From Chloroflexi bacterium CG23_combo_of_CG06-09_8_20_14_all_45_10 (GTDB lineage: Bacteria > Chloroflexota > Dehalococcoidia > GIF9 > AB-539-J10): DNA of 10,064 bases. Below are positions 1 through 9,927 of the stretch, piece by piece (position 1 is the stretch's first letter; each line of letters opens with the position of its first letter). A program made the position numbers and the translations under genes. The DNA is taken from the NCBI GenBank assembly GCA_002772325.1, contig PCSL01000018.1:1-10064 (forward strand), given 5' to 3'. The notes under the pieces are model-generated. The model saw nothing but the letters and a program-made list of their open reading frames with translations, did not search any database and was not told the DNA's origin.

Positions 1-73
1 AGCTGCAACGCAGGCTTTACCTCAAGAGTAAGCGAGAGTATGGCGAAGGGCTTGAAGGTGAAGAGTTGTCCGA

Positions 74-106
74 GAGCCGTGTGAGGGAAAACCTCACGCA
101 CGGTTC
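74..106 (+). ncRNA. Group II intron domain V hairpin
   Basis: GAGCCGTG (74-81) pairs with CACGGTTC (99-106) over 8 bp including one G-U. Then TGAGG (82-86) pairs with CCTCA (92-96), leaving the 2-nt CG bulge (97-98) on the 3' side. The AGC catalytic triad is at 75-77. This is the standard domain V architecture. The element is 33 nt rather than the usual 34, and the apical loop is GAAAA rather than a closed GNRA tetraloop, which may mean one base was lost in the distal helix. Confidence 0.85.
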
Positions 107-161
107 GATGAGGGGGAACTGGAAAAACAGGTGACCACTGTTCGCCTGTTCCCTACTCTAC
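107..161 (+). ncRNA. Group II intron domain VI and 3' splice site
   Basis: GGGAAC (114-119) can pair with GTTCCC (148-153), and AGGTGA (129-134) with TCGCCT (142-147, one G-U), giving an extended hairpin with a large 5'-side internal loop. A155 sits just 3' of the outer stem and is the seventh base from the proposed 3' end, the usual spacing for the branch-point adenosine. The intron-exon junction would be 161/162. Confidence 0.7.
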
Positions 162-177: not shown

Positions 178-1224
178 ATGCGCAAAGGAAGATGGTTGTA
201 TCTAGCAGTAGCAGTAGTATGTCTTTTCAGCTTAATCGTGGTTGGTTGTGCCAAGCCAGCGCCAGCAACACCAACAGAGCCAACAACACCAACGCCACCG
301 GCGATGAAGGCTCAGGAGTGGAAGCTGTCATCCTACTATGCTGAGCCACACCCACGCGCTCAAATGGATAAAAAATTCAAAGAGCTTATAGAAAAACGCA
401 CCAACGGCTTGATTACTATTAACATATATCCTGGCGAGTCATTGTTTCCGGGTACAGAATGCTTGTCTGCAGTAGCCACTAGGGCTGTTGAAGTAAGTCA
501 GGTCCCACCTCAATACTCCGAGGCGAAACACCCTATTAGTGGTGTTTTCAGCCCATGGGGTTACTGGAATGAGGAGAAGTGGCTCAAGTATGGGCCTGAG
601 GTAATAGACATAGTGAATAAAGATCCAAAGGGCTTTGAGGCTGCAGGTGTTAAGCTACTGTTCGCTTCCAGTCTATGTGATTACTACCTCATTTCCAGAA
701 CACCGATTAGCAAGCCCGAGGATCTGGTGGGGAAGTTAGTAAGAAGTGGTGGTGGCCTTATGGGGAAATGCATTAAAGCCATTGGCGGTGAGCCGGCCAG
801 AATATCAGCGGCTGAAACTTACGCGGCGCTTCAAAGAGGCACCTTGGATGGTGGCTGGATGGAGGGTCAGCGTGTTATTGCTGATAAGCTCTGGGAAGTG
901 GCGCCGTATGGTCTTAGCGGGCCAGGTTGGTCAGCTGTGGTTGTCTGCTACTACATGAACCTTGATTTATTTAATACCTTGCCTAAGGAGTATCAAAAAA
1001 TAGTTTTGGATGTCAGCCAGGAAACCTTCGAGTTTGGAGTTAAACTGGAAAGGCAGCTAGCCACGGAGGCAAAAGCTACAATAGAGCCGAAGATGAAAGG
1101 ATTTTTGTGGATGTCCAGTGATGAGGTACTGAGGTGGAGGGCGAAACAAGACCCTGTAATCGAAGAGTATGTTAAGACATACGGAGAGAATGCACGCCGA
1201 CTAGTAGAGATAATGAAAAAGTAA
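178..1224 (+). CDS. dctP: TRAP transporter solute-binding lipoprotein (DctP family)
   Basis: This is the extracytoplasmic binding protein of a tripartite, ion-gradient-driven TRAP transporter, which captures an organic acid and delivers it to the membrane subunits encoded next. The 348 residues begin with a lipoprotein signal: Arg/Lys-rich start, hydrophobic core at about 7-22, and a V-V-G-C lipobox placing the lipidated Cys at 24. A Pro/Thr/Ala-rich tether follows at 25-44 and the DctP fold from about 46. R189 matches the arginine that in this family usually forms the salt bridge with the substrate carboxylate. The family signature E-x-Y-x-A-L-Q-x-G-x-x-D-G spans 213-225. The ATG has a near-perfect ribosome-binding site. 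A 100-base gap with a hairpin separates it from the small membrane subunit. The ligand cannot be deduced; a carboxylate handled by the downstream CoA-transferases and mutases is the inference. Confidence 0.93.
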   Translation: MRKGRWLYLAVAVVCLFSLIVVGCAKPAPATPTEPTTPTPPAMKAQEWKLSSYYAEPHPRAQMDKKFKELIEKRTNGLITINIYPGESLFPGTECLSAVATRAVEVSQVPPQYSEAKHPISGVFSPWGYWNEEKWLKYGPEVIDIVNKDPKGFEAAGVKLLFASSLCDYYLISRTPISKPEDLVGKLVRSGGGLMGKCIKAIGGEPARISAAETYAALQRGTLDGGWMEGQRVIADKLWEVAPYGLSGPGWSAVVVCYYMNLDLFNTLPKEYQKIVLDVSQETFEFGVKLERQLATEAKATIEPKMKGFLWMSSDEVLRWRAKQDPVIEEYVKTYGENARRLVEIMKK

Positions 1225-1324: not shown

Positions 1325-1855
1325 ATGGCGACTAAATTTGAGCGATTGGCAAGTTGGCTGGAGCGTAGCTGTTTAGGGCTAGCTATAGTAGCAGGGGTTG
1401 TTGTTCTAATCATGACCCTGGATATAAGCTACTCCATATTTACCAGGTATGTGCTAAGAGCCCCCAGTGATATTCTCACTGAGAGTTCCAGGTATATGCT
1501 ATTAGTGACTGTTTTCTTTGCCACAGCCTATACTCTGTGGACCGAAGGTCATGTTAAGGTAGAACTACTACTAATAAGACTCTCCGTCAAAGTAAGAAAC
1601 TTATTAAACTTGATAACCCACAGCCTAGCACTTGTCTGGATTGCTGTTCTCACCTGGCAAACAGGCAGAATGGCGTGGATGGCATACAAATTAAGCTGGC
1701 ATTCCGATAGTATAAGCCATGTTTATTTATTCCCTATTTATATATGGATGCCCATAGGTAGCTTGCTACTTTTCCTCAGTTGCTGTTACAAGGTCTATGG
1801 CTTTTGGAAGGGTTGTAAGGAGCAAGCTAATCTAAGTTCAACCAAAGGTGGTTAA
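1325..1855 (+). CDS. dctQ: TRAP transporter small membrane subunit (DctQ family)
   Basis: This is the small four-helix membrane subunit that pairs with the large DctM-type permease of a TRAP transporter. The 176 residues have hydrophobic segments at about 15-36, 55-72, 92-113 and 135-156, the usual DctQ topology and length. The R-Y-V-L-R-A-P region (41-47), followed by an acidic and aromatic stretch (E53 to Y57), matches the conserved loop after helix 1. The G-H-V-K-V-E segment at 75-80 matches the family's G-x-H-V pattern. The start has a modest GAGG at 1313-1316, 8 bases upstream. The gene lies between the binding protein and the large permease in normal TRAP order. Confidence 0.9.
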   Translation: MATKFERLASWLERSCLGLAIVAGVVVLIMTLDISYSIFTRYVLRAPSDILTESSRYMLLVTVFFATAYTLWTEGHVKVELLLIRLSVKVRNLLNLITHSLALVWIAVLTWQTGRMAWMAYKLSWHSDSISHVYLFPIYIWMPIGSLLLFLSCCYKVYGFWKGCKEQANLSSTKGG

Positions 1856-1861
1856 TATTAA

Positions 1862-3163
1862 ATGGAATGGTATTTCTTAGCCCTCATTCTATTTGCGGCG
1901 CTGATTGCTCTGATAATCATTGGCATGCCCATTGGCTTCGCCCTTGGCTTCATTGGCGTTGTGGGGCTAATCTTCCTTATAGGACCTCAGTCACTCACAT
2001 TAGTAGGTAGCCTTGTCTGGGAAAAGAGCATCTCTTGGAGCCTTGTTTGCTTACCTTTGTTTATCTTTATGGCTGAGGTGATGGTGTTTACCGGGATTGG
2101 CAGTGATGCCTTTAAGGCAGCTAACTTATGGCTGGGTTGGTTGCCTGGTGGTGTGGGCGTAGCCACAGTGGCTGCCTGCGCTGTCTTCTCTGCCGCTTGT
2201 GGCTCAAGCACTGCTTGTGCTACGGCTATTGGAATAATGTCCATACCTGAGATGCTTAAACTCGGCTATCATAAGAGAATGGCAGCGGGTGTAACTGCTG
2301 CCGGCGGCACACTGGGCATCCTTATCCCGCCAAGTATAGTTATGGTCATCTATGGCACCATAACTGAGCAATCCATAGGACACCTTTTTATTGCCGGAAT
2401 AATACCTGGCATCATACTGGCGGCGATTTTTGTCACATATACAATCATCACAGCACTAAGGCATCCTGAAGTAGCTCCACGACCAGCTGCAGTTACATGG
2501 CATGAAAGGTGGGTTTCCTTGAAGGGTGTAATAGGCATAGTAGTCATAATGGGATTTGTCTTCGGCACATTATACACGGGAGTTTGTACCCCGGTTGAGG
2601 TGTCTGGTGCCGGCGCTCTTATGGCTCTTATTGTATCTTTGGTCTACCGCAAGCTTAACTGGTCAAATTTGAAAGCCGCTTTCCTACACACAGTTCGGAC
2701 CAATGCCTTTATATTCTTTATCCTCTTCGGGGCAGTGATATTTTGCGGGCTGGTTTGTTACCTGGGAATCTCAGAAGACATGGTGATATGGATGACTGGG
2801 CTTAGCCTGCCACGTTGGGGGATATTAATCATTATATATGTAATATATATTATCTTGGGCATGTTCCTTGACCCTACGGGGATGATGATGATTACTCTGC
2901 CTTTTCTTTTCCCAGTCATTGTGAAACTAGGCTACGACCCTATCTGGTTTGGAGTTGTAGTGACTATGCTTTGCGAAATGGGTTATCTCACGCCACCATT
3001 TGGGTTTAATCTATTCATTATAAAAGGTATTTCACCACCAGAGGTGGGGCTAGGAGACATCATTCGGGGTTGTGTTCCATTTGTAATACTAATGCTAATA
3101 GCTATAGTTATTTATACTATCTTCCCGCAGATAGTTTTATATCTGCCAAGTAAAATGGGTTAA
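1862..3163 (+). CDS. dctM: TRAP transporter large membrane subunit (DctM family)
   Basis: This is the large permease subunit that carries the translocation pathway of a TRAP transporter. The 433 residues are of standard family length and form about a dozen hydrophobic segments. Visible DctM landmarks are P-L-F-I-F-M-A-E at 65-72, the C-G-S-S-T-A region at 113-118, G-T-L-G-I-L-I-P-P-S at 149-158, the amphipathic I-Y-G segment at 163-165, L-G-M-F-L-D at 332-337, and E-M-G-Y-L-T-P-P-F-G at 372-381. The gene starts 6 bases after the small-subunit stop codon with AGGTGG just upstream, so translation is probably coupled. No frameshift is seen. A 52-base gap separates it from the first mutase gene, without a terminator, so the transporter and the catabolic genes may share a transcript. 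Confidence 0.94.
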   Translation: MEWYFLALILFAALIALIIIGMPIGFALGFIGVVGLIFLIGPQSLTLVGSLVWEKSISWSLVCLPLFIFMAEVMVFTGIGSDAFKAANLWLGWLPGGVGVATVAACAVFSAACGSSTACATAIGIMSIPEMLKLGYHKRMAAGVTAAGGTLGILIPPSIVMVIYGTITEQSIGHLFIAGIIPGIILAAIFVTYTIITALRHPEVAPRPAAVTWHERWVSLKGVIGIVVIMGFVFGTLYTGVCTPVEVSGAGALMALIVSLVYRKLNWSNLKAAFLHTVRTNAFIFFILFGAVIFCGLVCYLGISEDMVIWMTGLSLPRWGILIIIYVIYIILGMFLDPTGMMMITLPFLFPVIVKLGYDPIWFGVVVTMLCEMGYLTPPFGFNLFIIKGISPPEVGLGDIIRGCVPFVILMLIAIVIYTIFPQIVLYLPSKMG

Positions 3164-3215: not shown

Positions 3216-4883
3216 ATGGACATTAATGCTAAAGAGATTGAGCAAGCTTATCTAGAAAAACCAAGAAGGCTGAAAACATCGTCTGGCATACCAGTAAAGG
3301 AGGTATATAGTGCTGATGACATAAAAGACATCGACAATGCCAAGGATACAGGCAAACCAGGGGAGTTCCCTTTTACACGGGGAATACATCCCGATATGTA
3401 TCGAGGGAAATTGTGGACGAAACGGCAGCAATGGGGACACGGGAGCGCCGAGGATACAAATAAAGGGCTTAAACTGCTCATCAGTCAAGGCAGTACCGGG
3501 GTTTCACTTTATCGTGATTTGCCTACAGCATTGGGGATTGACCCTGATCATCCCATGGCTAGAGGTGAGGTGAACGCCGTGGGAACATCTCTGTGCTGTA
3601 TTGATGATATGAAGGTAGCCACTGATGGGCTCCCCTTAGATAAATTGAGCATTTCCATTCTCTGTGCCTCTTGCCCGGCTATCGTGCTCTTATCCCAGTA
3701 TATAGCTACAGCGGAAGAAAGAGGCATAGATAGGGCTAAACTAAGGGGACAGTTAACAAATGACCCCTTGGTAGGCTATTTCTGCTATTGTAAGGAGGCG
3801 AACCCTCCAGAGCTAGGCATAAAGATATCAACAGATATCATAGAGTATTGCACCAAGAGCATGCCGTTGTGGAATCCTATGTATGTCAGCGCTTTCTATA
3901 ATTGGCGAGAAGCTGGTGCGCTTACTGCACCTCAAGAGATAGCCTTTGGCTTCTCAGTGGCATTAGCTTTCATTGAAGGAGCATTGCAAAGGGGCATAAA
4001 TATTGACATTATCGCTCCAAGGGCGTCTATCTACGCTCAGGCCGGGATCGATTTCTTTGAGGAAATAGCCAAGCTACGGACAATGAGGCGAATGTGGGCT
4101 AAACTGATGAAGGAGAGGTTTGGTGCCAAGGATCCGAGGTCCTGGCGACTCAGGATAGCAATTCAAACTACAGGCAGCGACCTAGTGGCCCAGCAACCCT
4201 TGAACAACATTATTCGTATCGCTTATCAACAATTAGCTGCAGTCCTGGGCGGCGTTCAATCTATAACATCTTCCACTTATACCGAACCAATATGTCTACC
4301 CACCAAAGAAGCACATATGAGCGCTCTTCGAAGCATGCAGATTTTGGCTTATGAAACAGGGGTACCATTGGTTGCCGACCCGCTAGGCGGGTCATATTAT
4401 ATAGAATATCTTACTACCGAGATAGAGAAGCAAGCAACAAAGATATTGAATGATATAGAGAACAGGGGTGGAATTATCAAGGCCATCAAATCAGGTTGGG
4501 TAGAGGCGGAGTTTGAGAAATCAATCCTACAGCATCAAAAGGAGGTAGAAAGCAAAGAAAGGACAATAGTAGGAGTCAATGCTTATACTTCGCCACCTGA
4601 AGAAGACGTTCTACCCGGTGGTGTGCTCCGAGTTGCAGCACATAGCGAGCAGGAGCAAATAGCAAAAATTAAAAAATTTAAGCAAAGTCGAGATGATAGT
4701 AAGGTAAGGGAGGCAATAAGAGAATTGCGTGGGGGGGCAGAAATGGGAGAGAAGGAGAATTTAATATCTTACATCATCAAGGCAGTTAAGGCTCGGGCTA
4801 CTCTAGAGGAGATTATGGGCACTATTCGTGAGGCTTATGGTTATAGCTATGACCCCCTAAATATGCGAACTTCGCCCTTCTGA
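3216..4883 (+). CDS. B12-dependent acyl-CoA mutase large subunit L1 (methylmalonyl-CoA mutase family, substrate unknown)
   Basis: This is the TIM-barrel subunit of an adenosylcobalamin-dependent carbon-skeleton mutase. At 555 residues without a B12 domain, it has the split architecture of isobutyryl- and 2-hydroxyisobutyryl-CoA mutases. Family blocks are R-G-I-H-P-D-M-Y-R-G-K-L-W-T (55-68), A-P-R (267-269), E-E-I-A-K-L-R (282-288), A-D-P-L-G-G-S-Y (387-394) and V-G-V-N (452-455). Against Propionibacterium methylmalonyl-CoA mutase, R283, Q330, Q361 and E370 are kept (R269, Q317, Q348, E357). However Y89 is Q72, R207 is Y191, H244 is N229 and H328 is A315. Loss of the R207 equivalent argues against a methylmalonyl/succinyl substrate. 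GGGGAA at 3205-3210 serves the ATG. The B12-binding subunit follows almost directly. Family assignment is firm; the reaction is not known. Confidence 0.88.
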   Translation: MDINAKEIEQAYLEKPRRLKTSSGIPVKEVYSADDIKDIDNAKDTGKPGEFPFTRGIHPDMYRGKLWTKRQQWGHGSAEDTNKGLKLLISQGSTGVSLYRDLPTALGIDPDHPMARGEVNAVGTSLCCIDDMKVATDGLPLDKLSISILCASCPAIVLLSQYIATAEERGIDRAKLRGQLTNDPLVGYFCYCKEANPPELGIKISTDIIEYCTKSMPLWNPMYVSAFYNWREAGALTAPQEIAFGFSVALAFIEGALQRGINIDIIAPRASIYAQAGIDFFEEIAKLRTMRRMWAKLMKERFGAKDPRSWRLRIAIQTTGSDLVAQQPLNNIIRIAYQQLAAVLGGVQSITSSTYTEPICLPTKEAHMSALRSMQILAYETGVPLVADPLGGSYYIEYLTTEIEKQATKILNDIENRGGIIKAIKSGWVEAEFEKSILQHQKEVESKERTIVGVNAYTSPPEEDVLPGGVLRVAAHSEQEQIAKIKKFKQSRDDSKVREAIRELRGGAEMGEKENLISYIIKAVKARATLEEIMGTIREAYGYSYDPLNMRTSPF

Positions 4884-4896
4884 GGTGCAGAAATTG
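4882..4896 (+). promoter_or_regulatory. Ambiguous start of small subunit S1: GTG 4885 or TTG 4894
   Basis: The L1 stop TGA (4881-4883) is followed by one base and then GTG (4885). That GTG is itself part of GAGGTG (4882-4887), the only Shine-Dalgarno-like sequence here. GAGGTG lies 6 bases before an in-frame TTG at 4894, a better-spaced start that removes three residues. Either start keeps the whole B12 domain. Confidence 0.45.
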
Positions 4897-5313
4897 ATTT
4901 CTGAGGGCAAGAGAATAAGGATCCTGCTCAGCAAGGTAGGGCTTGATGGTCATGATAGAGGAATAAAGCTTGTGGCCAGTATCTTGCGAGAGGCAGGCAT
5001 GGAAGTTGTTTACCTTGGTAAACTCCAAAGCCCTGAGGGCATTATACAAGCGGCTATACAAGAAGATGTTGATGTTATTGGAGTCAGCTGCCTGACTGGG
5101 GAACACTTGTCCTTAGTACCTGATATTGTTGAATCAATTAGGAGGAATAATCTTCGTATGCCTCTCATTGTTGGCGGAATTGTTCCCAGGGAAGATATAC
5201 CACAACTGAAGAATATAGGTGTCGCTGCGGTGTTCACCTCAGGTAGCACATCAGTGGAGATCGTCAAATGCATAAAGGATTTAGTGCACAATCCGGAAAC
5301 AAGGCGAGTTTAG
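4885..5313 (+). CDS. Cobalamin-binding small subunit S1 of acyl-CoA mutase
   Basis: This is the stand-alone Rossmann-like B12-binding subunit that should complete the mutase encoded immediately upstream. The 142 residues (139 if TTG 4894 is used) match the separate small subunits of isobutyryl- and 2-hydroxyisobutyryl-CoA mutases. The base-off/His-on motif is intact: K17, then D21-x-H23-x-x-G26, with H23 as the expected lower axial cobalt ligand. S68-x-L70 and the G97-G98 turn, which line the dimethylbenzimidazole tail pocket, are also present. The gene starts one base after the L1 stop and its stop codon abuts the ATG of the first CoA-transferase, so all three are probably translationally coupled. 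It may also serve L2, whose own small subunit is degenerate; that is speculation. Confidence 0.92.
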   Translation: MQKLISEGKRIRILLSKVGLDGHDRGIKLVASILREAGMEVVYLGKLQSPEGIIQAAIQEDVDVIGVSCLTGEHLSLVPDIVESIRRNNLRMPLIVGGIVPREDIPQLKNIGVAAVFTSGSTSVEIVKCIKDLVHNPETRRV

Positions 5314-6561
5314 ATGTCTGAATCTTTATTAGAATCATATCGCGTTTTAGACCTTACTGATGAAAAGGGATTTCTTTGTGGCCGGATATTAGGTGATATG
5401 GGTGCTGATGTGATAAAAATTGAACCACCTGGTGGAGACTCATCGCGTAACAGGGGACCCTTTTACCACGATATACCTGATCCCAACAAGAGCCTTTATT
5501 GGTTTGCTTATAACGCCAATAAGAAAGGAATAACGCTTAATATCGAAACTAAGGATGGGCAACAGATATTTAAGAGCTTAGTTAAGCATGCTGACTTTGT
5601 TATCGAGTCTTTCTCTCCCGGGTATTTAGAGAGTTTGGGATTAGGCTATGAAGATTTAAGCCAAATAAACCCGGGGCTTATTCTAACTTCGATCACGCCT
5701 TTTGGGCAGACTGGACCCTATAGCCATTATAAGGCATCAGACATTGTTTCTATGGCTATGGGGGGACTGATGTATTTGAGTGGTGACCCTGACCGCCCCC
5801 CGGTTCGTGTTAGCTTCCCACAGTCCTATCTTCAGGGAGCGGCCGCTGCTGCTGCCGGGACAATGACAGCTTTCTATTACAGGCAGATTAGCGGGGAAGG
5901 GCAGCAGGTTGATGTCTCAATACAGGAAGCCGTTATCCGGGCTACATTGCAACCCCGCATGTTTTGGGATGTAGCGGGAAGAATTGTAGAGCGTGCCGGG
6001 CAATATCGAACTGCATTAAGCGCTCTGTCTACTCAGCGGGTAGTTTGGCAGTGCAAAGACGGTTGGATAAATTTCCCCATATTTGGGGGTGTTGCCGGAG
6101 CAAGGACTAATCGAGCTCTCGCACAATGGATGGAAAGCGAGGGCGTGAGCGACAAATTTTTGCTTACTAAGGACTGGGAAGCCTTTGATATGGCTACAGC
6201 AACAGAGGCTGAGATAAGGGACATTGAAGGGCGGTTAGTTAAGTTCTTCATGAGTCACACTAAAACTGAGCTTCTTGAGGGCTCACTTAATAAGCGCATT
6301 ATGTTATATCCCGTTTTCACCGTCGAAGATATTGTCACCTGCGCTCAACTTAAAGGTCGGGAGTTCTGGGAAGAGGTGGAGCATCCCGAATTGGCAACTT
6401 CTATTATCTATCCTGGGGCCTTCATAAAAATGTCACAAACTCCTTGTCAAATAAGGAAACGACCTCCTATCATTGGGGAACATAACGATGAGGTTTATCG
6501 AGGCGAATTCGGGTTTTCCAAAGGGGAAATTGCTGCGTTGAAACAAGGAGGTGTTGTTTAA
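5314..6561 (+). CDS. Class III (CaiB/BaiF) CoA-transferase family protein, catalytic Asp apparently missing
   Basis: This is a family III CoA-transferase fold, which normally moves CoA between carboxylic acids through an aspartyl-CoA anhydride intermediate. The 415 residues are of normal length. The N-terminal L-G-D-M-G-A-D-V-I-K-I-E-P-P-G (26-40), the N-K-K-G-I-T-L-N region (69-76), the S-I-T-P-F-G-Q-T-G-P stretch (126-135) and G-E-G-Q-Q-V-D-V-S (194-202) are family hallmarks. The catalytic Asp should lie 22 residues before the first Gly of G-E-G-Q. Here that region reads P169-Q-S171-Y172-L-Q-G, with no Asp between D160 and D200. It may therefore be an inactive or structural partner of the next protein. 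It starts directly after the S1 stop codon, with only weak AAGGCG upstream. The acyl substrates are unknown. Confidence 0.9.
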   Translation: MSESLLESYRVLDLTDEKGFLCGRILGDMGADVIKIEPPGGDSSRNRGPFYHDIPDPNKSLYWFAYNANKKGITLNIETKDGQQIFKSLVKHADFVIESFSPGYLESLGLGYEDLSQINPGLILTSITPFGQTGPYSHYKASDIVSMAMGGLMYLSGDPDRPPVRVSFPQSYLQGAAAAAAGTMTAFYYRQISGEGQQVDVSIQEAVIRATLQPRMFWDVAGRIVERAGQYRTALSALSTQRVVWQCKDGWINFPIFGGVAGARTNRALAQWMESEGVSDKFLLTKDWEAFDMATATEAEIRDIEGRLVKFFMSHTKTELLEGSLNKRIMLYPVFTVEDIVTCAQLKGREFWEEVEHPELATSIIYPGAFIKMSQTPCQIRKRPPIIGEHNDEVYRGEFGFSKGEIAALKQGGVV

Positions 6562-6564
6562 ACA

Positions 6565-7791
6565 ATGACCAAGTTTCGGAGAAAACAAGTGTTTGAAGGA
6601 ATAAAGATTGCTGACTTCTGCTGGGTAGGAGTAGGTCCCATAGTGATGTCTTATTTGGCAGACCACGGGGCGACTGTGATTCACATAGAATCGGCTACCA
6701 GGCCTGAGATATTGAGGACAACGCCACCCTTTAAGGATAATATACCAGGCTTAAACCGCTCCGCTTATTTTGCTAACTTTAACAATAACAAATATGGAGT
6801 GACCCTCAACTTAAATCACCCTAAAGCTATAGATATAGCCAGAGGATTTGTTTCCTGGGCAGATATCATAGGCGAGGCTTTCACCCCCGGAACGATGGAC
6901 AAGTGGGGCTTGGGCTATAAAGACTTGGTAAAAATAAAGCCTGACATCATCATGTTTAGCACTTGCCAGCAAGGACAAACCGGACCCTGGGCCAGGCAGC
7001 CAGCTTACGGGACTCAGTTAGTATCTCTCTCTGGTTTTACCAATTTAGCCGGCTGGCCTGACAGGGGACCAACAGGGCCCTTCGGAGCATACACCGATAG
7101 CATAGCCCCTCTATTTGGGGTAGCAGGTCTTGTAGCTGCGCTTGACTATCGCCGAAGGACAGGCAAGGGGCAGCACCTCGACCTTTCTCAATTCGAGGCA
7201 GGTGTTCATTTTGAAGCACCACTCCTTCTGGATTACTTTATAAATGGGCGAGTAGCCAGTGCAACAGGAAATCGTTGCCCGCATGCTGCTCCACATGGAG
7301 CGTATCCCTGCCGTGGCAATAACAGGTGGTGTACAATCGCCGTATTCACCGATGTGGAGTGGCATAATTTTTGTCATGCCATCGGTGACTCTGAGTGGAC
7401 TCAGAATTCCAGGTTCAGCACCTTGCTTGGCAGAAAAGAGAATGAAGATGAGCTAGATAAGCTGATTGCAAAATGGACGCTCGACTTTACCTCCGAGGAG
7501 GTAATGACTAAAATGCAGGGCGTTGGAGTAAGCGCCGGGGTAGTTCAAAACATGAAGGATATACACGAAGATGCTCAATTGGAGCATCGGCACTACTTAT
7601 GGCAACTGGAGCACGCCGAGATAGGGAAGCACTTCTACGACGGACCACCCTTCAAGTTATCCAAAACACCCTGTGAATTAATTATGCCTGCCCCCTGTTT
7701 AGGCGAGCACAATGAGTATGTATATGGTAAAATCTTGGGGATACCAGATAAAGAATTCGTAGAGCTGCTTTCTGAGGGGGTTTTTGATTAA
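6565..7791 (+). CDS. Class III (CaiB/BaiF) CoA-transferase, catalytic Asp present
   Basis: This is a family III CoA-transferase of 408 residues, a diverged paralogue of the preceding protein. D178, in Y-T-D-S-I-A-P, lies exactly 22 residues before the first Gly of T-G-K-G-Q (199-203), the spacing of the catalytic aspartate in formyl-CoA transferase. The P-G-T-M-D-K-W-G-L-G-Y region (108-118) and Q-Q-G-Q-T-G-P (135-141) match family blocks, and the C-terminal G-E-H-N is typical. The start lies 3 bases after the previous stop codon, with AAGGAGGT beginning at 6546, a rather long 11 bases from the ATG. The likely role is to activate the imported acid to its CoA thioester using another acyl-CoA as donor, possibly as a heteromer with its upstream neighbour. 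The donor and acceptor cannot be read from the sequence. Confidence 0.9.
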   Translation: MTKFRRKQVFEGIKIADFCWVGVGPIVMSYLADHGATVIHIESATRPEILRTTPPFKDNIPGLNRSAYFANFNNNKYGVTLNLNHPKAIDIARGFVSWADIIGEAFTPGTMDKWGLGYKDLVKIKPDIIMFSTCQQGQTGPWARQPAYGTQLVSLSGFTNLAGWPDRGPTGPFGAYTDSIAPLFGVAGLVAALDYRRRTGKGQHLDLSQFEAGVHFEAPLLLDYFINGRVASATGNRCPHAAPHGAYPCRGNNRWCTIAVFTDVEWHNFCHAIGDSEWTQNSRFSTLLGRKENEDELDKLIAKWTLDFTSEEVMTKMQGVGVSAGVVQNMKDIHEDAQLEHRHYLWQLEHAEIGKHFYDGPPFKLSKTPCELIMPAPCLGEHNEYVYGKILGIPDKEFVELLSEGVFD

Positions 7792-7830
7792 TACAGTATA
7801 ACTTCATCCAAGTTCAAGGAGGTTAAACAT

Positions 7831-9510
7831 ATGAGTAGCACAGATTTTGATGCTATTAAAAAGGCTGAGAGACGATATGAGGAAGAAGTAAGCAAATTTC
7901 TGGAGACGCATAAGGAGTTGCAGCGTGATTACAGGACAATCTCAGGAATACCCTTGAAGCGTGTTTATACTCCGTCTGATATTGAAGAGATAGACTACCT
8001 TAAGGACATTGGCTTTTCTGGTCAATATCCGTATACTCGAGGATCGTATCTGGATGGTTACCGAACCAGACCATGGAAGGTACAGCCGTTGATTGGCATT
8101 GATACTTGCGAGGAAACTAACCAGAGGTGGCGCAACCTTATCTCTCAAGGACTAACGGGGCTTGTTTTGGACGGCTTCCCTCCGATGTCATGTGAAGGAG
8201 GTGACCGAGGACAAATTTGCTACAATAGCGATGATGAACGTACGGAGGGATATATCGGGCATTGTGGTCTTGTTGTTGAGACACTTGCCGACTGGGAAAG
8301 GCTTTTTGAAGGTATAGACCTAGAAAAGATTAACATAAACATCCTTGCACATCAAAGTGTCCAGATGGCGATGTATTTATCCCTGGCAGAAAAAAGAGGA
8401 GTAGATAAGAGGAAGCTAAGAGGCACTCACGAAACCGTTACCTATGGTCTCAGTGATGGGGATGAAGATAGGCGAGAGCAACTTGATGAGATGGAATATT
8501 GTGTCAAAAATTTACCATTATGGAATATCACTACATTTAAGGGAAGGAATATGCGTGATGGGGGCTGCACAGCCCCTCAAGAGATAGCCATTAATCTAGC
8601 GATGGGGATTGACACTGCACGAGCGCTAATTAAGGAAAGGGGATTGGATATTGACCAGGTTGCCCCGAGGATGGGGTTTATGTTCTGTGCCCATATGGAC
8701 TTTTTAGAGGAGATAGCAAAGTTACGGGCAGCGAGAAGAATGTGGGCAAGGATAATGAAAGAGATGTTTGGGGCTAAGAACCCCCGTTCACAGATAATGA
8801 GGTTCCATGTGCAAACTGCCGGCTCTGCTCTCACTCGGCAGCAGCCACTGAATAATATTGCCCGAGCTGCTATCCAGGGGCTAGCTGCTATCCTAGGCGG
8901 AGCTCAATCTCTGCACCTGTGCCCTATGGATGAGGGCTATACTATACCTACGGAGTTTTCTACCCTAGTATCTATGCGTGTTCAGCAAATCCTTGCTCAT
9001 GAGACCGGGGTTATAAATGTCTGCGACCCCCTGGGAGGTTCTTATTGCATCGAGTCATTAACAAAACAGATTGAGAAAGAAACACAGAAGCTTTTAGATG
9101 AGATCGAGAAGAGAGGTGGTGAATGTAAGGCTAGAGGGTGGATTATTAACGAAATTTGCGCTTCAGCTTATAAATATCAAAAACAGATTGCCTCCAAAGA
9201 GCGAATCATTGTCGGAGTAAATGAATTTACCGAGGGGAATTACCCTTATCCCTTCGAGCTAAGGGACTATAATATATCCACCGCTGAAAAGCAAATATCT
9301 CGCTTAAACAAGGTTTGGAAGGAGAGAGATAATGCTAAAGCTGAGGCAATGAAGAAGAGTTTAATCCAAGCTTTCCAGAACAAAGAAAATATCATGCCTC
9401 ACTTAATCAAAGCATGTAAGGCTTATCTAAGTGCTGGTGAAATTCATCAGTGTCGTGTTGCTGCCGTAGGTGAGGAAGCTTGTTACTCTAAAGTTTCCTA
9501 TGAACATTAG
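7831..9510 (+). CDS. B12-dependent acyl-CoA mutase large subunit L2, divergent (possible hydroxyacyl-CoA type)
   Basis: This is a second split mutase large subunit of 559 residues, a paralogue of L1 sharing E-E-I-A-K-L-R (293-299), R-R-M-W-A (302-306), Q-Q-P-L-N-N (337-342), C-D-P-L-G-G-S-Y (398-405) and V-G-V-N (461-464). R280, H326, Q328, Q359 and E368 match methylmalonyl-CoA mutase R283, H328, Q330, Q361 and E370. The substrate pocket differs: Y89 is L87, Y243 is R239, H244 is N240 and E247 is D243. The segment holding Q197 and R207 is about 7 residues shorter. D114 falls where 2-hydroxyisobutyryl-CoA mutase has Asp117, and L87 where it has Ile90. An insertion of about 9 residues follows D114 (roughly 115-150) and contains three Cys (121, 130, 145). 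AAGGAGGT begins at 7816, 8 bases before the ATG. A novel substrate is likely; loss of mutase activity is also possible. Confidence 0.86.
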   Translation: MSSTDFDAIKKAERRYEEEVSKFLETHKELQRDYRTISGIPLKRVYTPSDIEEIDYLKDIGFSGQYPYTRGSYLDGYRTRPWKVQPLIGIDTCEETNQRWRNLISQGLTGLVLDGFPPMSCEGGDRGQICYNSDDERTEGYIGHCGLVVETLADWERLFEGIDLEKININILAHQSVQMAMYLSLAEKRGVDKRKLRGTHETVTYGLSDGDEDRREQLDEMEYCVKNLPLWNITTFKGRNMRDGGCTAPQEIAINLAMGIDTARALIKERGLDIDQVAPRMGFMFCAHMDFLEEIAKLRAARRMWARIMKEMFGAKNPRSQIMRFHVQTAGSALTRQQPLNNIARAAIQGLAAILGGAQSLHLCPMDEGYTIPTEFSTLVSMRVQQILAHETGVINVCDPLGGSYCIESLTKQIEKETQKLLDEIEKRGGECKARGWIINEICASAYKYQKQIASKERIIVGVNEFTEGNYPYPFELRDYNISTAEKQISRLNKVWKERDNAKAEAMKKSLIQAFQNKENIMPHLIKACKAYLSAGEIHQCRVAAVGEEACYSKVSYEH

Positions 9511-9522
9511 GAGGTCTCAAAA

Positions 9523-9927
9523 ATGGCGATAAGGGTGCTACTTACTGCTGATGAGACAGGACATTCTATGGGTTACCATACGATAGCCACGGCTCTAAGA
9601 GATGCTGGCATAGAGGTCATTCTAGGAGGCACTCAAATACCTCGTGAAATTGCACACACCGCCATACAGGAGGACGTAGATGTTATTGCGTATCGAATCA
9701 TGGGAGCCCACCCCCCAACATTAGTTTCCCGGCTGGTAAAGGTGCTGAAGGAGCAAGGTGCAGACAATATCCCCATAGTTGTAGGAGGTGCCATTCTCCC
9801 TAAGCAGGAAGAGCAGCTAAGGGAAATGGGGGTGCTAAGAATTTTCCCTCTAGGTTGTTCCCTCGAATCTGTCATTAGTTTTTTTGTAAAGTTTTCCGAG
9901 AACAAGCATTCTTCCAACGTCTCGTAG
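9523..9927 (+). CDS. Cobalamin-binding small subunit S2 of acyl-CoA mutase, degenerate B12 motif
   Basis: This is a stand-alone B12-binding-domain protein of 134 residues, presumed partner of L2. The fold is recognisable from A-I-R-V-L-L at the start, the T-A-L-R-D-A-G helix end (23-29), A-I-Q-E-D-V-D-V-I (47-55) and V-V-G-G-A-I-L-P (86-93). The usual D-x-H-x-x-G is T12-x-H14-x-x-G17, so the axial His is kept but the Asp that hydrogen-bonds it is Thr. The Lys before the motif is lost and the loop is one residue shorter. The usual S-x-L is R58-x-M60. TAGGAGGT overlaps the L2 stop codon and lies 8 bases before the ATG, so coupling to L2 is expected. It may bind cobalamin weakly or in a different manner. 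The last ten residues are polar and poorly conserved in style. Confidence 0.85.
   Translation: MAIRVLLTADETGHSMGYHTIATALRDAGIEVILGGTQIPREIAHTAIQEDVDVIAYRIMGAHPPTLVSRLVKVLKEQGADNIPIVVGGAILPKQEEQLREMGVLRIFPLGCSLESVISFFVKFSENKHSSNVS

Follow-up and report, generated by a model that had tools for sequence, protein, structure and literature searches.

The closest described counterparts of the locus considered here are methylmalonyl-CoA mutase (MCM), 2-hydroxyisobutyryl-CoA mutase (HCM) and the benzylsuccinate CoA-transferase BbsEF. HCM-type mutases are described as acting in the breakdown of acetone and butanone by sulfate reducers (PMC8084838), and succinyl-CoA is given as the CoA donor of BbsEF (PMC10818641). 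Many CaiB-type transferases and tripartite ATP-independent periplasmic (TRAP) transporters have already been reported from SAR202 genomes, also Chloroflexota (PMC5395668). Related parts stand side by side on contig PCSL01000018.1 (C92) of Chloroflexi bacterium CG23_combo_of_CG06-09_8_20_14_all_45_10 (Dehalococcoidia; assembly GCA_002772325.1, hereafter G000), a 1.0-Mb genome that is 73% complete. The window analysed is this whole contig, 10,064 bases long. It holds nine + strand genes in the order DctP-DctQ-DctM-L1-S1-CT1-CT2-L2-S2, that is, a TRAP transporter, the large and small subunits of one acyl-CoA mutase (L1, S1), two CoA-transferase subunits (CT1, CT2) and the large and small subunits of a second mutase (L2, S2). 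We lean towards reading these genes as an operon for the catabolism of a branched carboxylic acid, which would be imported, activated through CoA transfer by CT1-CT2 and rearranged by L1-S1 and L2-S2.

The gaps between the nine genes are, from DctP to S2, 100, 6, 52, 1, 0, 3, 39 and 12 bases, and the match of every gene exceeds its Pfam cut-off. The four terminator-like sites on the + strand each lie within a gene, with none between genes, and the number of such sites on both strands (10) shows no excess over that expected from shuffled sequences (8.2 ± 3.2). This arrangement supports the prediction of a single nine-gene operon. An earlier note on this DNA had described six same-strand genes, two mutase pairs around two CoA-transferase genes, behind a complete TRAP set; both the order and the coordinates were confirmed.

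L1 (3216..4883, +; 555 aa) and L2 (7831..9510, +; 559 aa) match PF01642 only (542 and 492 bits; cut-off 22.1 bits), and S1 (4885..5313, +) and S2 (9523..9927, +) match PF02310 (99 and 54 bits; cut-off 32.1), as expected for the acyl-CoA mutase superfamily. The large subunits are 40% identical to each other and the small subunits 34%, which argues against a recent duplication. Neither large subunit carries the fused GTPase domain of IcmF, and their scores with the NCBIfam IcmF model (190 bits for L1 and 161 for L2) are to be compared with a cut-off of 1500. The fold, the two domains and Glu370 are common to MCM and both window mutases, whereas His244, Arg207 and Tyr89 of MCM are all substituted or lost in L1 and L2. 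L1 has Asn for His244, Val for Arg207 and Gln for Tyr89; L2 has Arg-Asn in place of Tyr243-His244, a deletion of the stretch around Arg207 and Leu for Tyr89. HCM (PDB 4r3u) belongs to the clade that keeps His244, unlike L1 and L2, which both have Asn there; it has Ile at position 89 and Gln at position 207. Of the 14 active-site columns read, 10 differ between L1 and L2. The AlphaFold2 model of L2 has a predicted local distance difference test (pLDDT) score of 88, and that of L1 a mean of 74, with long weak stretches.

These residues were followed through 208 aligned large subunits, chosen from the L1 and L2 matches and from the loci fetched, with four duplicate rows removed. Glu370 is kept in all 208, as expected for working enzymes. 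In the 120 members of the His group, position 207 is Arg (88) or Gln (32), whereas His244 and an Arg aligned at 207 are both lacking in all 57 members of the group of L1 (Y-N/D) and all 31 members of the group of L2 (RN). The Asn replacing His244 could still hold the thioester carbonyl. That no Arg aligns at 207 speaks against substrates of the methylmalonyl or succinyl type held in the way MCM holds them.

Phylogenetic analysis separated the same three groups. In a tree of 97 sequences, the His, Y-N/D and RN groups had Shimodaira–Hasegawa-like approximate likelihood-ratio test (SH-aLRT) values of 99, 99 and 100, respectively, with four end branches flagged as long, HCM and the genome's own third mutase among them. 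A more careful tree of 56 sequences gave bootstrap/SH-aLRT values of 98/93 (His), 100/100 (Y-N/D) and 100/100 (RN). Both trees are unrooted, and Y-N/D and RN are distinct clades in them without necessarily being sisters. The earlier note had taken placement of L1 or L2 within a clade of known substrate as fatal to its proposal of a new pathway; in both trees, L1 (Y-N/D clade) and L2 (RN clade) fall outside the His clade, which holds the three solved mutases placed, two MCMs and HCM. No assigned reaction was found for either branch, these three being the labelled references, with the isobutyryl-, pivalyl- and acetone-pathway mutases outside the trees. Neither the two clades nor the gene order was described in the titles and abstract openings of the open-access literature retrieved with the terms searched.

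Both small subunits retain the cobalt-ligand His. S1 has the canonical K...DGHDRG motif (D-x-H-x-x-G), whereas S2 reads ADETGHSMG (T-x-H-x-x-G): Thr replaces Asp, the stretch before it is shorter by one residue and the Lys has been lost. This variant motif also occurs in a 64% identical orthologue of S2 in another genome of the class, G406. A set of 83 distinct small-subunit rows, to which those of the window belong, has Asp at this position in 77, Glu in three and Thr in two; the remaining one is not a true small subunit. L1 and L2 are unlikely to be the two halves, one of them inactive, of a single alpha-beta enzyme like MCM: each large subunit has Glu370, and each comes with a small subunit that keeps the ligand His.

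The two genes between the mutases, CT1 (5314..6561, +) and CT2 (6565..7791, +), encode family III CoA-transferase subunits (PF02515). Among solved proteins, their best matches are the two chains of benzylsuccinate CoA-transferase (PDB 9fn0): CT1 matches 9fn0_A with 228 bits (141 for the next structure) and CT2 matches 9fn0_B with 282 bits (174 for the next), at identities of 43.5% and 41.3% across 216 and 230 residues, respectively. At the catalytic column, CT2 has Asp, like chain B, and CT1 has Tyr, like chain A. We take chain B to be BbsF and chain A to be BbsE on the strength of the catalytic Asp, which we presume to be that of BbsF, since the PDB names say only 'subunit'; the Joint Genome Institute (JGI) name 'BbsF subunit' on CT2 relatives is a second ground. 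Each of the eight CT2 relatives fetched is directly preceded, on its own strand, by a CT1 relative, and Asp occupies the catalytic column in eight of eight CT2 homologues and in none of the eight CT1 homologues. For these reasons, CT1 and CT2 are very probably subunits of a single heterodimeric enzyme of the BbsEF type, as judged from sequence comparison, rather than the 'CoA-transferase pair' of which the earlier note speaks; two independent CoA-transferases were rejected because the catalytic Asp is found on CT2 only. The likeness to BbsEF lies in the neighbouring genes for two family III subunits with a catalytic Asp in one only; the difference is that the contig of CT1-CT2 has none of the other benzylsuccinate beta-oxidation genes.

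On the favoured explanation, the TRAP transporter would import a branched carboxylic acid, and the CT1-CT2 heterodimer, with a single active site on CT2, would transfer CoA to it, the donor being succinyl-CoA or a different compound. L1-S1 and L2-S2, putative coenzyme-B12 radical mutases of separate clades, would then rearrange the carbon skeleton of the acyl-CoA, and the product would be finished by ordinary beta-oxidation enzymes encoded elsewhere. This supposes that all the parts serve one pathway and that both mutases are active. A further supposition is a branched substrate, one that would offer the enzyme no carboxylate in the manner of methylmalonyl-CoA. The beta-oxidation genes found beside relatives of the mutases suggest that the rearrangement makes branched acyl chains oxidisable.

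A protein search for relatives of L2 gave nine proteins at 60% identity or more, including that of the window; seven other L2 sequences are at least 72% identical over 99–100% of their length. In genome samples, L2 was found in 1 of 400 genomes of the phylum, its own (E 1e-150), in 2 of 393 of the class, its own and G406 (E 1e-142), and in 1 of 52 of the family, again its own (E 1e-150). Seven proteins, including the window's, are related to L1 at 83% identity or more; the next is at 64% and the remainder of the 120 listed are at 49–59%. With L1 as the query, 181 of the 393 class genomes gave matches at E 1e-130, none but its own above 52% identity and many of them of the His type, and a scan of genome contigs with an L1 alignment likewise gave mostly His-type mutases among the matches listed. 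Genes of the Y-N/D type are present at loci L009, L010, L011 and L055. L1-type matches were found in 16 of 85 genomes in the class of L011 (Desulfobacteraceae, Thermodesulfobacteriota; E 1e-155 or better), in 4 of 42 in the class of L010 (E 1e-150 or better) and in all eight in the class of L009 (Deltaproteobacteria; G739 and G890–G896), with two to six each at E 1e-155. The genomes of the class of L009 (1.9–3.1 Mb) show a striking expansion of B12 mutases, with 16–32 first-look candidates per genome.

The neighbourhoods of 28 L1-type genes were read at 27 loci (L192 holds two), which were those with the best L1 matches, chosen and not random; the L1-type gene of L131 was dropped by an overlap filter, and L055 and L101 are outside the list. 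Several of these contigs end near the gene, so absences are to be read as lower bounds. A small subunit adjoins 19 of the 28 genes, and within 6 kb there is an acyl-CoA dehydrogenase in 18 cases, a thiolase in eight and a CaiB-type transferase in three. In G406, the L2-S2 orthologue is followed by genes for a thiolase, a ChsH2-type OB-fold protein, an amidohydrolase, an old yellow enzyme (OYE)-type protein, which we read as dienoyl-CoA-reductase-like, and two hot-dog dehydratases. The same strand of this contig carries a CT1-CT2 pair (50% and 48% identical to that of the window) some 15 kb beyond, and after that come hot-dog, acyl-CoA dehydrogenase, His-type mutase and thiolase genes. The neighbours of the L1-type genes and those of the L2 orthologue thus indicate that both clades accompany beta-oxidation-like catabolism.

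Two diverged mutase pairs around a CoA-transferase pair were an arrangement that the earlier note did not recognise. The presence of two mutases side by side does recur: a second mutase large subunit lies within 6 kb of 11 of the 28 L1-type genes (10 loci); the whole six-gene set was met in this window only, among the loci examined. A close likeness is with two-mutase cassettes of Deltaproteobacteria (for example L009, L192, L195, L206, L011), in which an L1-type gene stands near a second, different large subunit and one or two small subunits. These cassettes differ from the window in having no CT1-CT2 and in having an acyl-CoA dehydrogenase within 6 kb in all five, and their partner mutase is not of the RN clade where it can be read (that of L009 is cut). 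At MCM position 244, the partner mutases of L191, L192, L194–L197 and L206 show Ala, Val or Ser; they are placed, with weak support, outside the three main groups. Neighbouring pairs of His-type large subunits were seen at L136, L137, L138 and L151, in genomes of the class Dehalococcoidia, with a small subunit after them in L136 and L137.

Several results weigh against a single pathway served by all six genes. CT1 or CT2 lies within 6 kb of none of the 28 L1-type genes, seven of the eight CT-pair relatives have no mutase in the stretch fetched, and L2-S2 of G406 has neither L1 nor CT1-CT2 beside it; the expectation that relatives would share the six-gene arrangement was thus not borne out in those examined. 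L2 is absent from two other genomes of the genus, which are 82% and 68% complete, and no dehydrogenase, hydratase or thiolase gene is present on the 10,064-base contig. The Asp and Lys usual in the B12 motif are missing from S2. An Arg stands no more than four alignment columns from position 207 in 23 of the 57 Y-N/D members, L1 not being one of them, and part of that clade may therefore have a carboxylate clamp that has moved instead of being lost. On the side of linkage, the longest listed contig has the same length, 21,345 bases, for P0127 (an L1 relative, 83%) and P0003 (an L2 relative, 86%), a sign that L1 and L2 may be linked in a second genome. For P0241, a cluster near-identical to CT2, the contigs reach 17,723 bases, a value missing from the L1 and L2 lists; this evidence is weak because the same lists fail to tie the window's own genes together. 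Co-function is therefore argued from one contig and, more loosely, from gene neighbours in G406. A single pathway of import, CoA transfer and rearrangement, as proposed in the earlier note, remains the natural reading of the layout. With the CT pair and both mutases in other company elsewhere, and judged by the refuting condition that the earlier note had set, the cluster appears to consist of modules brought together locally rather than of a fixed cassette.

How the two mutases would share the work can be read in two ways. The cautious one is that they act in parallel, each taking a different acyl-CoA, or a different stereoisomer, from acids accepted by the same importer and transferase. The distinct clades of L1 and L2 and their differences in the active site favour this reading, as do the occurrence of L2-S2 in G406 without L1 beside it and the absence of an RN-type mutase within 6 kb of any of the 28 L1-type genes examined elsewhere. 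That both pairs flank a single CoA-transferase within a compact operon speaks against it, as does the joint travel suggested by the shared 21,345-base value, and we regard it as a serious possibility that falls short of probable. The bold reading is serial action: two successive B12 rearrangements of one imported acyl-CoA, by which a branch would be moved stepwise along the chain by two lineages without the active-site His or an aligned Arg207. We put this forward tentatively, as less likely than not. It may also be asked whether one pair does not work as a mutase and is instead a decayed or regulatory copy; L2-S2 would be the likeliest, as the loss of Asp and Lys from the B12 motif of S2 and the deleted substrate loop of L2 might indicate. 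This appears very improbable: the seven close relatives of L2, the variant motif shared with the 64% identical orthologue and the retention of the ligand His and Glu370 look like selection, not decay.

Two further alternatives concern the substrate. L2-S2 might be a 2-hydroxyacyl-CoA mutase of the HCM type whose specificity arose independently, position 89 being occupied by a branched aliphatic residue and an Asp lying close to the site of HCM Asp117; Ile90 and Asp117 are presumably the residues that matter in HCM. L2 has Leu where HCM has Ile90, and its AlphaFold2 model ranks 4r3u first, tied with MCM in Z score. L2 and its seven closest relatives have an Asp-Gly in common, whose Asp the smaller of two alignments puts on the Asp117 column (Ala in MCM-type enzymes); the larger alignment puts it past a gap, off that column. 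L1 has Gln and Tyr at the two positions. As L2 also lies outside the HCM clade and has no His244, we think this explanation unlikely. A CoA ester and a mutase take part in alkylsuccinate degradation, and the locus could be imagined as part of an alkyl- or arylsuccinate pathway, in which the TRAP transporter would import a fumarate adduct, the transferase would activate it and the mutases would convert (1-methylalkyl)succinyl-CoA to (2-methylalkyl)malonyl-CoA. The closeness of the CT pair to benzylsuccinate CoA-transferase fits such a pathway; its weight is reduced by the many copies of CT2 relatives per genome (found in 11 of 13 genomes searched at E 1e-60 or better, with up to 11 per genome), which means that the resemblance does not fix the substrate. 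Neither L1 nor L2 has an Arg at the position of the MCM carboxylate clamp, which a dicarboxylyl-CoA would be expected to need, and no glycyl-radical enzyme (PF02901) was found in G000 (73% complete) or G406 (99%), although the adduct could be imported. We judge this pathway improbable, more so than an HCM-type reaction, and return to the import, activation and rearrangement of a branched acid as the favoured explanation.

PF02901 matches were found in 6 of 14 genomes, several of them with L1-type mutases (G490, 14 matches; G739, 13; G890, 11; G896, 7; G853, 4; G845, 3). In two of 20 glycyl-radical stretches fetched, glycyl-radical enzymes lie near a mutase and its small subunit (L229, 2752-11906; L230, 3957-8583). 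The eight such glycyl-radical proteins scanned were below every NCBIfam cut-off listed.

The TRAP transporter upstream of L1 is complete and in order, each gene being above its Pfam cut-off. DctP, the solute-binding protein (178..1224, +), matches PF03480 with 113 bits and also TRAP_S1 above its cut-off; DctQ, the small permease (1325..1855, +), matches PF04290 with 77 bits, and DctM, the large permease (1862..3163, +), matches PF06808 with 313 bits. Comparison of DctP with solved structures gave many TRAP DctP relatives, with no one ligand prominent among them. Directly upstream of these genes is the 3' end of a group II intron (72..161, +; Rfam RF00029, 56.6 bits, gathering score 40), at which the contig probably breaks because the element is repeated. 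Given that the contig starts at this intron end and stops 137 bases past S2, the operon may extend beyond the visible stretch on either side.

G000 has a third mutase pair, of the His type, on contig C96 (locus L128, 307-8891), together with radical SAM, CaiB, two enoyl-CoA hydratase and carboxyltransferase genes; part of the stretch around Tyr89 is missing from its large subunit. This pair is likelier than L1 or L2 to be the MCM of the genome.

What is new in the locus is how parts of known kinds are combined, two of them belonging to mutase branches that lack an assigned reaction; it is not a new kind of system. On the favoured explanation, the breakdown of a branched acid encoded here probably follows a route that has yet to be reported. 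The solved mutases placed here, two MCMs and HCM, are all in one His-keeping branch, and beside it stand two further well-supported branches, which include members from Dehalococcoidia and Thermodesulfobacteriota. If these branches rearrange other branched acyl-CoAs, they would explain in part how uncultured bacteria make use of recalcitrant acids, and would offer new starting points for radical biocatalysis. The window provides a compact, testable set of one importer, one transferase and two mutases. Should serial action prove true, then, together with the expansion of mutases in Deltaproteobacteria, B12-dependent skeleton rearrangement would be a broad catabolic strategy of uncultured bacteria for branched or alicyclic acids.

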